From an uncultured Nitrososphaerales archaeon (GTDB lineage: Archaea; Thermoproteota; Nitrososphaeria; Nitrososphaerales; JAAOZN01), in assembly GCA_938029515.1 (NCBI GenBank), contig CALJAQ010000020.1, forward strand, positions 1 to 11,844: a DNA stretch of 11,844 nt, read 5' to 3'. The translations under genes were made by a program, and so were the position numbers. Position 1 is the stretch's first letter. The number at the start of each line of letters is the position of its first letter. This document shows, piece by piece, positions 952 to 6,363 of this stretch. The notes below the pieces were generated by a model. It was not told where the DNA came from, searched no databases, and saw only the letters and a list, made by a program, of their open reading frames with translations.

Positions 952-1971
952 ATGAAGGCGGTAGTATATTATGAGCACGGTGAAGCCGATAGGCTGATCT
1001 ACGAAGAGAGAGATAAACCGACAATTGGAGAAGGTGAAGCGCTCATTAAGGTTGAAGCATGCGCGTTAAATAGGCTTGACATCCTAGCAAGGAGAGGGGT
1101 TGTAAAGACTACAGCGACTCTACCACATATACTCGGTGTCGACATTGTAGGCTACGTAGAGGAGCAGAAAGGAGGTAATCTTCCAATAGGCACACCTGTA
1201 CTTGTCTACAGCGCGATAACCTGCGGTAGATGCCCAGCCTGCCTCTCGGGTAGAGAAAACCGCTGTCAATCGCTGAAGATGATAGGTTTCCACACAGATG
1301 GAGGTTATGCGGAGTATGTGAATGTACCTGTACGAAACCTTATACCTCTTAACCCTAAGATTCCCTTAGAGGAGTATGCAGCAGTACCTGTTGATTACAC
1401 TACTGTGTGGCATGCTCTAATCGAAAGAGGCGGCCTCAAGGTTGGTGAAAGTATTCTCATCTGGGCTGGTGGAAGCGGTGCTGGAACTGTAGCAACAAGG
1501 TTGGCCAAGCTCGTTGGAGCTACGGTCTTCACAACAGTTGGCAGCGCTGAGAAGGCTGAGAAGGCTAAGCGTTTTGCAGATCATGTATTCAACCACTACA
1601 GCGGTGATGTGCCTAGATTAGTGAAGGAGGCTACTGGAGGAAGGGGTGTTGACGTAGTGTTAGATTACATTGGCTCCGCTACTTGGAAGAAGAGCCTAGA
1701 ATGTTTATCGGTAGGTGGTAGGATGATAACCTTCGGTGGAGTAAGCGGCTTCGACGGGGATGTAGATATAAGAGCATTCTACACAAAGCACCTCACAATA
1801 ATAGGAACCTTCTTCGGAACAAGGCTCGACCTGTTGAAATCGTTAGAGTTAGTCGAAAGAGGATTATTAAGGCCAGTAATAGATTCAATTTACCCACTTA
1901 AGGATGCTAGAAGCGCACATATCAAGATGGAGGAGAGTAGGCACTTTGGGAAGATTCTTCTTAAACCCTAA
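952..1971 (+). CDS. Zinc-containing alcohol dehydrogenase-like / quinone oxidoreductase-like MDR protein
   Basis: A 339-residue medium-chain dehydrogenase/reductase with an N-terminal GroES-like catalytic domain (about 1-145) and a Rossmann NAD(P) domain (about 146-290) carrying AGGSGAGT around 172-179. The structural zinc site is complete: C91, C94, C97 and C105 in CGRCPAC...NRC. The catalytic zinc ligands of true alcohol dehydrogenases are not evident. The usual first cysteine region reads ACALNRLDILARRG (N40, D43), and the GHE motif is replaced by GVD (62-64), as in quinone oxidoreductases. It is therefore more likely an NAD(P)H-dependent reductase of quinones, enones or acyl-type substrates; the substrate is unknown. 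The start is the ATG at 952, because family members begin MKAVVY and it sits correctly behind the 918-931 TATA element. The upstream in-frame GTG at 916 overlaps that promoter. Its stop overlaps the carB stop. Confidence 0.85.
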   Translation: MKAVVYYEHGEADRLIYEERDKPTIGEGEALIKVEACALNRLDILARRGVVKTTATLPHILGVDIVGYVEEQKGGNLPIGTPVLVYSAITCGRCPACLSGRENRCQSLKMIGFHTDGGYAEYVNVPVRNLIPLNPKIPLEEYAAVPVDYTTVWHALIERGGLKVGESILIWAGGSGAGTVATRLAKLVGATVFTTVGSAEKAEKAKRFADHVFNHYSGDVPRLVKEATGGRGVDVVLDYIGSATWKKSLECLSVGGRMITFGGVSGFDGDVDIRAFYTKHLTIIGTFFGTRLDLLKSLELVERGLLRPVIDSIYPLKDARSAHIKMEESRHFGKILLKP

Positions 1972-4900
1972 GAGAGGGGTATCCTTAACTCCCGTCTATG
2001 GATCATCTTCAACCCTTCAACGAATGCTTCAGCACCCTCATAGGTTGTTAGCACAGGGACACCAGTTTCAACAGCCTTCCGTCTAATCTGATACTCATCC
2101 TCCAACATGCTGGCAAACTTCTCCAAAACTGTAGTCGAAGGTATGTTTATGATAAGCTCAAGCTTACCTTCAACCAAATAGTCTAGAATGTTGGGTTTAC
2201 GCTCAGGTTCGCTTATCTTATTCAGCACCTTAACACGCAGACCACCCTTCTTCTCCAAATACTCTGCGGTGTGCTCAGTAGCATATACGTTGAAGTTAAG
2301 GTCGATAAGCTTCTTGGTAAGATTGAGTATACGAGCCTTTAAATGAACGCCTCCTACAGTGACCAAGATGTTGCTATTAGGCTTAGGGATCTTGTATCCT
2401 ACAGCTATCAGAGCCTTTATTAGAGCTTCAAAGAAGCTGCTGCCGAAGCACGCGACTTCACCCGTCGAACGCATTTCTACACCTAGATGCGGGTCTGCTC
2501 CCTCCAGCTGCATAAACGAAAATTGAGGAGCTTTTACACACACCTGCTTCATAGATAAGTCGCCTCTACCGGTAAGTGGGATCTTACCGTTAAGCATCGC
2601 TGAAGCGGCGAGTGAAATTAGGTTTACACCTGTAGCTTTAGAAACAAACGGCATAGATCTAGAAGCCCTGAGATTACACTCTATAACATAAACTACACCA
2701 TCCTTATACAGAAACTGTATGTTGAATGGGCCTTTGATTCTAAGAGCCTTAGCTACCTTCGTAGCATATTCTATCGCGAGTTGCTGAACATCGGCTGGGA
2801 GCCTTTGAGGAGGTATGCACATTATAGCGTCTCCAGAGTGAATACCAGCTTGCTCAACATGCTCTATGACAGCACCGATATAGACTCTTTCACCGTCGCT
2901 AACACCATCGATTTCAAACTCTTGCGCATCCATTATGAACTTGCTTATAACAACAGGATGCTCTGGACTAACCTTAGCTGCTTTTAGCAGAAACTGCTCT
3001 AGCTGCTTCGGTGTCCAGACGATTCTCATGGCGGCGCCGCTTAACACATAGGATGGTCTCACGAGGATTGGGTAAGAGACCTTCTTGGCGAAGGTTTTAG
3101 CATCTTCTATGGATGTGAAGGTGCTCCACTCTGGTTGAGGTATGTGTAGCTCATCTAGAAGTTTGCTGAATTTTGCCCTATCTTCGGCTTTATCGATGTT
3201 TACGCTTTCTGTTCCTAGTATCTTTGCGCCGTATGCTGTTAAGGCGGTTGCGAGGTTATTCGGTATCTGTCCGCCTACAGAGATTACAACACCAAGAGGT
3301 TTCTCCTTCTCATAGATATCTAACACTCTCTCCAGTGTCAACTCCTCGAAGTAGAGTTTGTCGCTCATATCGTAGTCTGTTGAAACTGTTTCCGGGTTGC
3401 AGTTAACTACGATAACTTCTTCAACACCATTGTTCTTCAACTCCCAGACCATATTCATAGTAGACCAATCGAATTCAACAGAGCTTCCTATCCTATATGT
3501 GCCAGCACCTAGAACCATCACCTTCTTCATATCCTTGAATTGAATGTCGTCTGCATCACCGTTGTAAGTAAGGTAGAGGTAGTTCGTCTTAGCAGGCCAC
3601 TCAGCGGCTAAGGTATCTATCTGCTTAACCACCGGCACTATATTGAGTTTTTTACGTAGATCTCTAACCTCAGCTGCAGACACCCCTATACACTCAGCGA
3701 TTTGAGCGTCTGAGAAGCCGAGCTGCTTGGCTCTGCGGAGCAGATCAGGCGCAGCGCCTTCAGCTACTTTCCTTGCAGCTTTCCTCAGAAGTCTTTCCAT
3801 TTCGATGATGTTGTTGATCTTGTTTATGAACCAAGGGTCGATGCTGCTCAGCTTGTTTACCCGCTCAGCTGTTAAGCCTGCTTTAAGAGCATCAGCCACG
3901 TCAAAGATTATCTCATCAGTCATATGCTGAAGCCTTGCTTCAATTTCATCCACATTTACTGAGGCCTCGTGCCTCCGATCTGCTACAAGCCCACTCCTAC
4001 TTATGTCGAGCATTCTGATAGCCTTCTGTAAAGCCTCCTCGAAACACCTACCAATAGCCATAACCTCTCCTACTGACTTCATCTGCGTGCCTATCTTTCT
4101 AGTAACTTTATCGAACTTCGTTAAATCCCAGCGGGGCATCTTTACAGTAACATAGTCGAGTGACGGTTCGAAGCCAGCGGTAGTGATGCCAGTGACCTTA
4201 TTTATCAACTCTGAAAGCGAGTAGCCCAGCATAAGCTTTGCAGCGCTGTATGCTATTGGGTAGCCTGTCGCTTTCGACGCTAAAGCCGATGAGCGTGATA
4301 GTCTGGCGTTTATTTCAATAGCAACATATCTTTCTGAATTAGGCTCTAAAGCGAACTGTATGTTGCATTCCCCTACTATTCTACAAGCCTCTGTAGCCTT
4401 TAGGGCCGCTGTTCTCAGAAGATGGTACTCTCGGTTGTTTAAGGTCTGCGAAGGGGCTATTACTATGTTATCACCGGTATGAACTTTCATAGCTAGAATA
4501 TTCTCCATATTACATACGGTCAGACCGTTTCCATATGCGTCTCTCATAACCTCATATTCGATTTGCTTCCAAGTTCCTATATACTCTTCAATAAGCACTT
4601 GGTGTGTTAAGCTGCTCACTAACCCTCTAGTAACGATCTCCTCAAATTCATACTCGTTAAAGGCTACCCCACTCCCCCTACCTCCAAGCGTATATGCTAC
4701 GCGAACCATAATTGGGTAACCTAGTTCAGCCACGATCTTTCTCGCCTCTTCAAGGGAATAGGCGGCTGCGCTTCTCGCTACAGGTATACCAGCGTCTAGC
4801 ATAGTCTTACGGAATAAGTCCCGATCTTCTGTGGCTTCGATGCCTTCTATAGGTGTGCCAAGCACCTTAACACCATACTTGTCTAATATTCCCCTCTTCG

Positions 4901-5228
4901 ATAATATGATGCCGCAGTTTAGAGCAGTCTGCCCTCCAAAGGATAGCACTATGCTATCAGGCCTCTCAACCTCAATAACCTCTCTGACGAAGTCAGCGTT
5001 AACTGGTAGAAAGTAAACCTTCCCTGCTAACTTCTTATCTGTCTGAATAGTAGCTATATTTGGGTTTACGAGAACGGTTTCTATACCCTCCTCACGGAAG
5101 GCCTTAAGACATTGGCTACCTGAGTAGTCGAACTGGCGGCTGCTTTAGCAGCTTTCGCCCGCTTCGCCTATCTTAATGGCCCCGCTGCCGAGGACAACAA
5201 CTTTCTTTATAGAGCTGTTAAGCGGTAT
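1968..5228 (-). CDS. carB: Carbamoyl-phosphate synthase large subunit, interrupted by a putative 21-nt intron
   Basis: Large subunit of carbamoyl-phosphate synthase, which makes carbamoyl phosphate from bicarbonate, ATP and CarA-derived ammonia for pyrimidines and arginine. After removal of 5133-5153 the protein has 1079 residues, close to E. coli CarB (1073). Residue numbers here are for that spliced form. The N-terminal nucleotide-binding motif is KKVVVLGSGAIKIGEAGE (8-25), continuing FDYSGSQC from residue 26. The first ATP-grasp half has GGRGSG (about 175-180). A linker carries the allosteric/oligomerisation region. The second half starts at about 561 with KKVMVLGAGTYRIG and EFDWS. The last ~135 residues form an MGS-like regulatory domain (VTVGGVHLKARI). 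The frame is closed by an in-frame TAA at 5147-5145 unless the 21 nt are removed or bypassed. Between an upstream TGA (5237-5235) and the conserved N-terminus there is no ATG, GTG or TTG. ATA at 5228-5226, 7 nt after GGAGGTG, is the best start. It overlaps carA by 11 nt. Downstream of the interruption the frame is intact and fully conserved, so I do not call a pseudogene. Confidence 0.9.
5133..5153 (-). other. Putative 21-nt bulge-helix-bulge intron in carB (with in-frame TAA)
   Basis: The mRNA strand reads GGCGAA, then 21 nt, then TTCGAC. The 21 nt separate GEAGE from FDYSG, which are contiguous in CarB proteins, and contain TAA (5147-5145). Folding gives exon GGCG paired with intron CGCC (4 bp); an AAA bulge; an intron hairpin GCTGC-TAAA-GCAGC; and AGT after CGCC on the 3' side. 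Cutting after the second base of each bulge (AA|A and AG|T) removes exactly 5153-5133 and restores the frame. This matches the rule for the archaeal tRNA splicing endonuclease. The outer helix is imperfect (CGAA can pair with TTCG across a GCG/AG internal loop), so this is a relaxed HBh'-type motif. Alternatives are an assembly or strain-specific insertion, stop readthrough, or translational bypassing. Confidence 0.65.
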
Positions 5229-6363
5229 GGTTTTTCACCTCCATCCTTTGAGCGAACAAGTCAAATATGTAGAGGGTATCGTATGGGCCTGGTGAAGCTT
5301 CTGGATGGAATTGCACAGCCAGTATCGGTTTGGCTTCATGGTACACCCCTTCAACCGTTTTGTCGTCGGCGTTTATCATCCACACATCTAACCCACTCTT
5401 ATCTAGTGAATTTGGGTTGATAGCGTATCCATGGTTCTGGCTTGTTATGTAGTTGCGCCCGCTTTTAAGATCGATGCATGGTTTGTTCTGACCCCTATGT
5501 CCGTATTTCAACTTAAATGTGTCTCCTCCTAGTGAGAGGGCGATTATCTGCACACCTAGGCATATGCCGAGCATAGGTATACCTTCATCAACTAAAGAGC
5601 TTACGGTCTTAATCGCCTTCACGCAGATCTTAGGGTCTCCTGGGCCGTTGCTTATGAGCACACCTTTGGGGTTATACTCCATTATTTCTGACGCTGAGGT
5701 GTTATGCGGGACACGTATGACTTTTAGGCCTCTTTTCAGTAGCTCCCGTATTATACCATACTTTACACCACAGTCTATAACTACGACCTTATCTCCTCCT
5801 TTACCGTAGATCATAGGCTCTTTTACACTAACCGTGCTTACGAAGTCTTGCTCACCATACCTTTGAGCCCCGGCTAGTCTTCTCTTCAAGTCTTCAACGT
5901 CGATTTCATCTTCAGCTACAGCTAACACACCCATCATAACACCCTGCGCACGTAGCTTCTTAGTAAGCTCTCTGGTGTCTACGCCTTCAATCCCAGGCAC
6001 ACCCTCTTCATAGAGCCAGGTGTCAAGACTCTTTCTAGACCTCCAGTGGTTAGGTGCTCTACAGAGTTCGCTAACTACAACGCCTGTAACCTGCGCTCGA
6101 TCTGATTCGAAGTTTAGAGGTATGTTATACTTGTCTGCATCGCTGTAAAGCGGGACACCGTAATTTCCAATAAGTGGGTATGTGAACGTCAAGATCTGCC
6201 CTCTATATGAGGGGTCAGTAATGCTTTCAGTATAACCTACCATTCCTGTGGTAAAGACTACTTCTCCTACCCTTATAGCTGGGTAGCCGAAGCCACGCCC
6301 ATGGAAAAGAGTACCGTCTTCAAGTAGGAGGGTGGCGTTGTAAATTCTTTCAGGAGTAACCAA
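5218..6363 (-). CDS. carA: Carbamoyl-phosphate synthase small subunit (glutamine amidotransferase)
   Basis: A 381-residue glutamine-hydrolysing subunit that passes ammonia to CarB. The N-terminal CarA domain (about 1-180) contains GEVVFTTGMVGYTESITDPSY and TYPLIGNYG. The C-terminal class I glutamine amidotransferase domain has the oxyanion strand NGPGDP (239-244), the nucleophile C268 in GICLGVQ, the conserved SQNHGYAI (308-315), and the catalytic pair H353 and E355 in QFHPEASPGP. The catalytic triad is complete and the length is normal. The start is TTG (6363-6361), since no other start keeps the NATLLLEDGTLF strand that family members share. An AT-rich box, ATATTTAAGG on the plus strand at 6399-6408, lies about 40 nt upstream and fits a promoter with a short leader. 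carB follows with an 11-nt overlap, so the two are translated from one mRNA. Confidence 0.96.
   Translation of the reverse strand: MVTPERIYNATLLLEDGTLFHGRGFGYPAIRVGEVVFTTGMVGYTESITDPSYRGQILTFTYPLIGNYGVPLYSDADKYNIPLNFESDRAQVTGVVVSELCRAPNHWRSRKSLDTWLYEEGVPGIEGVDTRELTKKLRAQGVMMGVLAVAEDEIDVEDLKRRLAGAQRYGEQDFVSTVSVKEPMIYGKGGDKVVVIDCGVKYGIIRELLKRGLKVIRVPHNTSASEIMEYNPKGVLISNGPGDPKICVKAIKTVSSLVDEGIPMLGICLGVQIIALSLGGDTFKLKYGHRGQNKPCIDLKSGRNYITSQNHGYAINPNSLDKSGLDVWMINADDKTVEGVYHEAKPILAVQFHPEASPGPYDTLYIFDLFAQRMEVKNHTA
5236..5242 (-). promoter_or_regulatory. Strong ribosome binding site for carB, inside the carA 3' end
   Basis: GGAGGTG on the minus strand is complementary to the 16S rRNA 3' end and lies within codons of the carA C-terminus (MEVK). 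The 7-nt spacer ends at ATA (5228-5226), which is in frame with carB. This site decides the choice of ATA as the start, since no standard start codon exists in frame. Confidence 0.7.

Follow-up and report, generated by a model that had tools for sequence, protein, structure and literature searches.

How a complete CarB can be produced from a gene whose reading frame meets a stop codon near its beginning is the question raised by the carB locus of the window, i.e. the whole stretch of 11,844 nucleotides from an uncultured Nitrososphaerales archaeon that was analysed here. All features described below lie on the minus strand. Exon 1 of carB (5154..5228) starts with an ATA codon (5228-5226) and encodes IPLNSSIKKVVVLGSGAIKIGEAGE. 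It is followed by the putative 21-nt intron AGCTGCTAAAGCAGCCGCCAG (5133..5153), for which cuts are predicted between 5154/5153 and 5133/5132, and by exon 2 (1968..5132), which reads FDYSG and continues to the stop codon of the gene.

The interrupted carB gene

Across the junction the sequence runs GGC GAA / AGC TGC TAA AGC AGC CGC CAG / TTC GAC TAC, so that the reading is ...GSGAIKIGEAGE, then the seven codons of the insert and then FDYSGSQC. A first-pass annotation had proposed an insert at 5133-5153 with an in-frame TAA; its coordinates and the stop codon (5145..5147, in the loop of the intron) were confirmed. An open reading frame with an ATG, GTG or TTG start begins only at the GTG at 4949 (4949-1968, 993 aa), and according to the reading frame translation of the unspliced message would end after a 27-residue peptide. 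Joining 5228-5154 to 5132-1968 gives a single CarB of 1079 aa. Residues 1-338 of this spliced frame match the solved chains of E. coli CarB and human CPS1, and the alignment with human CPS1 is free of gaps at GEAGEFDYSG. Exact removal of the insert hence restores a conserved CarB protein, as is expected of an archaeal bulge-helix-bulge (BHB) pre-mRNA intron.

The start of carB overlaps by 11 nt with an ORF at 5218..6363, which, judging from its sequence, is of the carA type. The initiation codon is ATA (5226-5228) in the window and in the congener G001, and GTG in the congener G002. Directly upstream of the ATA of the window, GGAGGTGA is located at 5242-5235, and there is no in-frame ATG, GTG or TTG in the window between the upstream stop codon (5237-5235) and the conserved part of exon 1. 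Three matches with 92% identity in the protein collection comprise 993 aa (P0005-P0007), which is the length of the truncated ORF of the window, and three matches with 86-88% identity are of full length (P0001-P0003). Scans for tRNA genes returned nothing in the window or in nine loci.

Predicted RNA structure and cut sites

In the predicted fold, a central helix H is formed by GGCG of exon 1 (5156..5159) and CGCC of the intron (5135..5138). It is flanked by bulge 1 (AAA, 5153..5155) and bulge 2 (AGT, 5132..5134), each with a predicted cut after its second base, and the intron itself contains the hairpin h' (GCTGC TAAA GCAGC, 5139..5152). The 4-bp helix, the AAA bulge and the hairpin are as stated in the first-pass annotation. 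As a single sequence, the window folds moderately better than its shuffles (z -1.31, 25 of 200 shuffles equally good). With a z value this modest the window alone is no proof of the structure, which is supplied instead by the inserts at the same site and the compensating stems of its relatives.

RNAalifold predicted the same structure from 118 distinct sequences and from a MAFFT alignment of 45 sequences. The consensus core consists of a 4-bp helix between GGCG of exon 1 and CGYN of the intron, a 3-nt bulge ARA, the hairpin and an open ANTTY at the 3' side, where the window has its bulge 2. The outer helix between exon 1 and exon 2 comprises CGGAG/CTCCG, an A.A mismatch, AG/CT and C/G. It had been suggested that cutting each bulge after its second base yields precisely the 21-nt excision. 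When this rule was applied to the unguided RNAalifold fold of the 45 sequences, the cuts fell after column 21, the last base of the GAR codon, and after column 55, in front of TTY, and they thus coincide with the boundaries that the protein requires. Shifting the junction by -1 or -2 kept GEAGEFDY in 91 of 104 cases, a shift of +1 in 4 and the other three shifts in none; the value for shift 0 (104/104) is fixed by construction, as the parser took its boundaries from the protein, and all that can be read from this comparison is which shifts are incompatible with the protein.

In the 45-sequence alignment, 96.9% of 765 cells were paired. Changes on both sides of a pair were found in 71 cells, compared to 23.2 in shuffles (none of 500 as high) and 6-20 in slid controls, and four of the five stem pairs of hairpin h' showed such changes. 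Mapped onto the tree, each of three stem pairs underwent seven double compensatory changes, and helix H shows one double change between exon and intron, from C-G to T-A. When the 118 sequences were folded singly (the short row L082 had been dropped from this set), the hairpin was formed in 116, the outer helix in 113, helix H in 76 and all three in 74. With boundaries set by the protein, the pairs H2-H4 and h'1-h'3 were present in all 105 distinct strings and H1 in 93 of them.

The first-pass annotation had described the outer helix as imperfect and the motif accordingly as relaxed. This is true of the window, which together with G001 provides the two rows lacking three standard pairs in the outer-helix table; most relatives keep the CGGAG:CTCCG helix, which is only partial in the genus of the window. 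A strictly canonical BHB, with two 3-nt bulges and a continuous outer helix, was found neither in the fold of the window nor in the consensus folds. The features of a BHB intron that were found are an intron hairpin and a central helix, about 4 bp long and with a bulge on either side, of which the 3' bulge is relaxed (ANTTY). The 3' bulge of the consensus is longer than 3 nt, which is a point against reading the insert as a BHB intron.

Occurrence and constraint of the insert in relatives

A search of 41 genomes with the region as DNA gave matches in 24. The first-pass annotation had suggested comparing carB among close relatives: G001 (89% identical) carries the insert, with a TAG besides the TAA, G002 lacks exactly 21 nt at this site, and the stems covary across relatives. 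Inserts were present in 12 of the first 20 loci, at the same codon junction, with lengths of 21, 22, 23, 25, 26 or 30 nt and differing sequences. Of 400 genomes from the order, 360 yielded CarB. When named genomes were scanned with a sequence pattern, at least 119 loci were obtained, all matches listed having the insert at the carB site; since the pattern fixes GGCGARWGY, CGY and TTYGAYTAYTCNGG, the conservation of these bases in the 119 loci is not independent, and with several bases fixed the scan is no evidence for absence elsewhere. Among the 119 matches listed, 116 belong to the Nitrososphaerota, two are without a phylum and one is labelled Woesearchaeota. The listed bearers of the intron include Nitrosotalea devanaterra, N. 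bavarica, Nitrosopumilus salaria, Nitrosarchaeum, Cenarchaeum, Nitrosocosmicus and Nitrososphaera. Three loci are identical letter for letter to loci of named genomes, one of them that of Nitrosopumilus sp. b1 (family f10). Identical strings were merged before inserts, folds, trees, codons and landing codons were counted.

With a covariance model of the intron and its flanks, matches at E <=0.001 were obtained in 125 of 349 genomes of the phylum under strict filters, genomes without a match being uninformative. Within the order there were 62 matches, 41 of them of intron length (at least 60 nt) and 21 of 41 nt, the intron-free length. Outside the order, only one of 63 matches exceeded 41 nt. 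This match, in G605, was rejected as a carB intron outside the order: it lacks an FDYSG site and, by its sequence, belongs to a different gene. In a tree of 165 CarB proteins, from which four short rows (L103, L134, L142, L153) were left out, the presence of the insert changes at least 7 times (5 of the changes forced by well-supported branches), its frame class 30 times and its length 38 times; a second tree with 189 rows gave 13 changes in presence, and as the root of these trees is unknown, gains and losses are indistinguishable.

Two of the loci deserve separate mention. The MAG Nitrosarchaeum nzgw9 contains two intron-bearing carB loci (L109 and L126), whose introns measure 21 and 20 nt; it is perhaps a mixed bin. 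On the contig labelled Woesearchaeota (L172:2154-5834), carB has the intron as well; an ORF with a homing-endonuclease repeat (PF18780) lies between the carA-type ORF and carB, and a transposase-type ORF is found nearby. This copy may be due to transfer, inheritance or misbinning, and on a rather unlikely reading its position beside the homing-endonuclease-repeat gene hints that intron-bearing carB may also move between phyla.

A model restricted to the core of the motif (R2) was run on 40 genomes, and all 10 matches at E <0.01 were located at carB; its reach is limited, as it missed 2 of the 12 known carB introns of those genomes (G006 and G013). Six weaker matches had E values of 0.03-0.96. 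In 68 of the at least 119 named loci (540 kb) the model matched once per locus, 68 times in all. Within this search for the core of the motif, nothing points to a multiplying element, with one motif per genome.

The 105 distinct exon-intron-exon strings have inserts of 20-34 nt, falling into frame classes of 47, 29 and 29, and 58 of the inserts would shift the frame. All 105 strings meet a stop codon, 82 inside the insert and 23 within 300 nt downstream. The eleven codons upstream of the insert (102 distinct pieces) vary mainly at third positions, and a crude omega of about 0.16, calculated from 400 random pairs, indicates purifying selection on exon 1 in its frame. Since exon 1 is conserved as protein, the frame-shifting cases can join it to exon 2 only with the insert gone.

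Of the 104 distinct introns, all 46 with a length divisible by three contain an in-frame stop codon, compared to 33 of the 58 others. Relatives with nothing but sense codons at this place, named in the first-pass annotation as the case that would speak against an intron, were therefore not seen. The stop codons of the 46 are TAA, TAG or TGA and differ in codon position. When the letters of the loop were shuffled (2000 trials), on average 16.9 of the 46 introns kept a stop codon, with a maximum of 27. Counted over independent pairs the contrast is 3.7 to 0 of 14 (median p 0.125), too few pairs for significance. The regularity suggests selection against read-through of the unspliced message. Jaillon reportedly described a comparable rule for tiny eukaryotic introns in 2008.

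The exon bases that take part in pairing are constrained at wobble positions in intron-bearing genes, too. GGC is used at the helix-H codon in 151 of 152 intron-bearing rows compared to 2 of 37 intron-free rows, and this was the sole significant contrast over independent pairs among those listed (about 6.6 to 0 over 7 pairs, median p 0.016). All five codon features (Ile with C as third base, GGA, GGC, TAC and TCY) occur together in 138 of 152 intron-bearing rows and in none of the 37 intron-free ones. The listed contrasts other than GGC point in the same direction without significance, the independent-pair medians being 0.125 for the Ile third base, 0.25 each for GGA, TAC and TCY, 0.5 for GAA and 0.125 for all five together. 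Among loci not chosen by the pattern, a set that includes 20 loci picked for a stop codon inside the insert, intron-bearing genes showed GGC in 31, GGA in 30 and TAC in 32 of 32 cases; the values for intron-free genes are 2, 6 and 12 of 29. Eight intron-free genes from family f10 of the order have relaxed codons at the pairing positions.

Fate of the insert and biological meaning

Genes for the splicing endonuclease EndA (PF01974) were found in 40 of 41 genomes, 31 of which have two. In both G001 and G011, one EndA gene encodes the His-containing motif GIDHAPYLV and the other lacks this His, which fits a catalytic and a structural subunit. The assembly of the window itself, 72% complete, contains a single EndA gene, whose type lacks this His. 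RtcB is encoded in all 21 of 21 genomes, that of the window included. Thaumarchaeota are listed with an alpha2-beta2 EndA in PMC4090602, and according to PMC6379350 relaxed motifs are cut efficiently only by (alpha-beta)2 and epsilon2 enzymes, one (alpha-beta)2 EndA with constrained specificity also being described there.

The shared site, the EndA-type fold and the break of the frame in carB together indicate that the insert is most likely removed from the mRNA. We consider it highly probable, judging from sequence comparison, that the 21 nt are a small pre-mRNA intron of the relaxed BHB type that is excised by EndA and sealed by RtcB. In the carB transcript, the GGCG at the end of exon 1 would pair with the CGCC at the 3' end of the intron, beside the short intron hairpin, and in most relatives the helix between exon 1 and exon 2 would close the structure. 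The two-subunit tRNA-splicing endonuclease would then cut each bulge between its second and third base and RtcB would join the exons, so that the ribosome could read GEAGE-FDYSG. The BHB mechanism predicted in the first-pass annotation gains support from the conserved position of the insert, its frame-breaking lengths, the covariation, the wobble constraint and the EndA and RtcB genes of the relatives; cleavage and ligation as such, as well as the identity of the acting enzymes, we infer from these features.

A ribosome that leaves the message at the GAR codon, skips the hairpin and resumes in exon 2, with the RNA left uncut, would likewise deliver a continuous CarB; such a translational bypass would fit a short hairpin that often holds a stop codon, and hopping tolerates variable lengths. 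The known cases (T4 gene 60, yeast mitochondrial byps), however, require a landing codon that matches the take-off codon, and none of the 104 distinct inserts ends in GAR before TTY. Bypass also gives no reason why exon 1 pairs with the 3' end of the intron, why a helix forms between the exons and why wobble bases are frozen on both sides, and we regard it as very unlikely. Even less weight can be given to the idea that nothing is removed and that translation yields either two peptides or a CarB starting at the GTG further downstream (993 aa). The three close database relatives of 993 aa (P0005-P0007) would agree with this, but purifying selection acts strongly on exon 1 in its frame, and GEAGEFDYSG lies within the conserved N-terminal part of the solved CarB and CPS1 chains. 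A sequencing error, an assembly artefact or gene decay might be suspected because the assembly of the window is fragmented and 72% complete; yet the insert is structurally conserved and occurs in many separate assemblies, including the single-contig G009, G011 and G012 and the chromosome LN890280, and exon 2 is open for 1054 codons in the window, leaving this explanation next to no probability.

If the insert is indeed a spliced intron, it is conceivable, although rather unlikely, that it is an old intron of the whole order, kept because splicing gates CarB: output would depend on EndA and RtcB, the unspliced message would be stopped early, and the intron would have been lost precisely several times once the gate had become dispensable.

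Very short inserts in genes, the 12-bp elements of the rudivirus SIRV1, were reportedly proposed to be spliced by Peng in 2004. These elements are viral variants, whereas the carB insert occupies a fixed site common to many cellular species. The closest counterpart is the cbf5 pre-mRNA intron of Crenarchaeota (Watanabe 2002, Yokobori 2009), which is described in PMC2738675 as short and BHB-like with a relaxed motif in a protein gene, cut between the second and third bulge bases by a hetero-oligomeric EndA and patchily present among lineages, all of which applies to the prediction for carB, too. It concerns another gene in another clade, and its splicing was shown by cDNA, whereas that of carB is predicted. 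Relaxed-motif tRNA introns (hBH, HBh'; PMC6379350) share the helix-bulge logic of the carB insert, but the exons of carB encode protein and their strands are thus also constrained by codons. In Haloferax, the mRNA of HVO_1309 is cut by EndA at a BHB site (PMC7714728), as proposed here for carB; this site, however, lies in the 5' UTR and no coding exons are joined.

In 2009, PMC2738675 referred to introns predicted in other protein genes without confirmation, citing Peng 2004 for one of them, and as of 2020 the cbf5 mRNA is given in PMC7714728 as the only additional archaeal BHB intron reported. The first-pass annotation knew of no intron in carB, and no such case was found among the open-access papers searched.

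If true, the carB case would be a further coding BHB intron, situated in a core metabolic gene of a large order to which ammonia-oxidising archaea belong. It also suggests that in many species the annotated CarB lacks its N-terminal part or is broken. Cultured members of the order allow direct tests of splicing, and introns of 20-34 nt that were repeatedly gained or lost would lend themselves to studies of the recognition of relaxed substrates by EndA.
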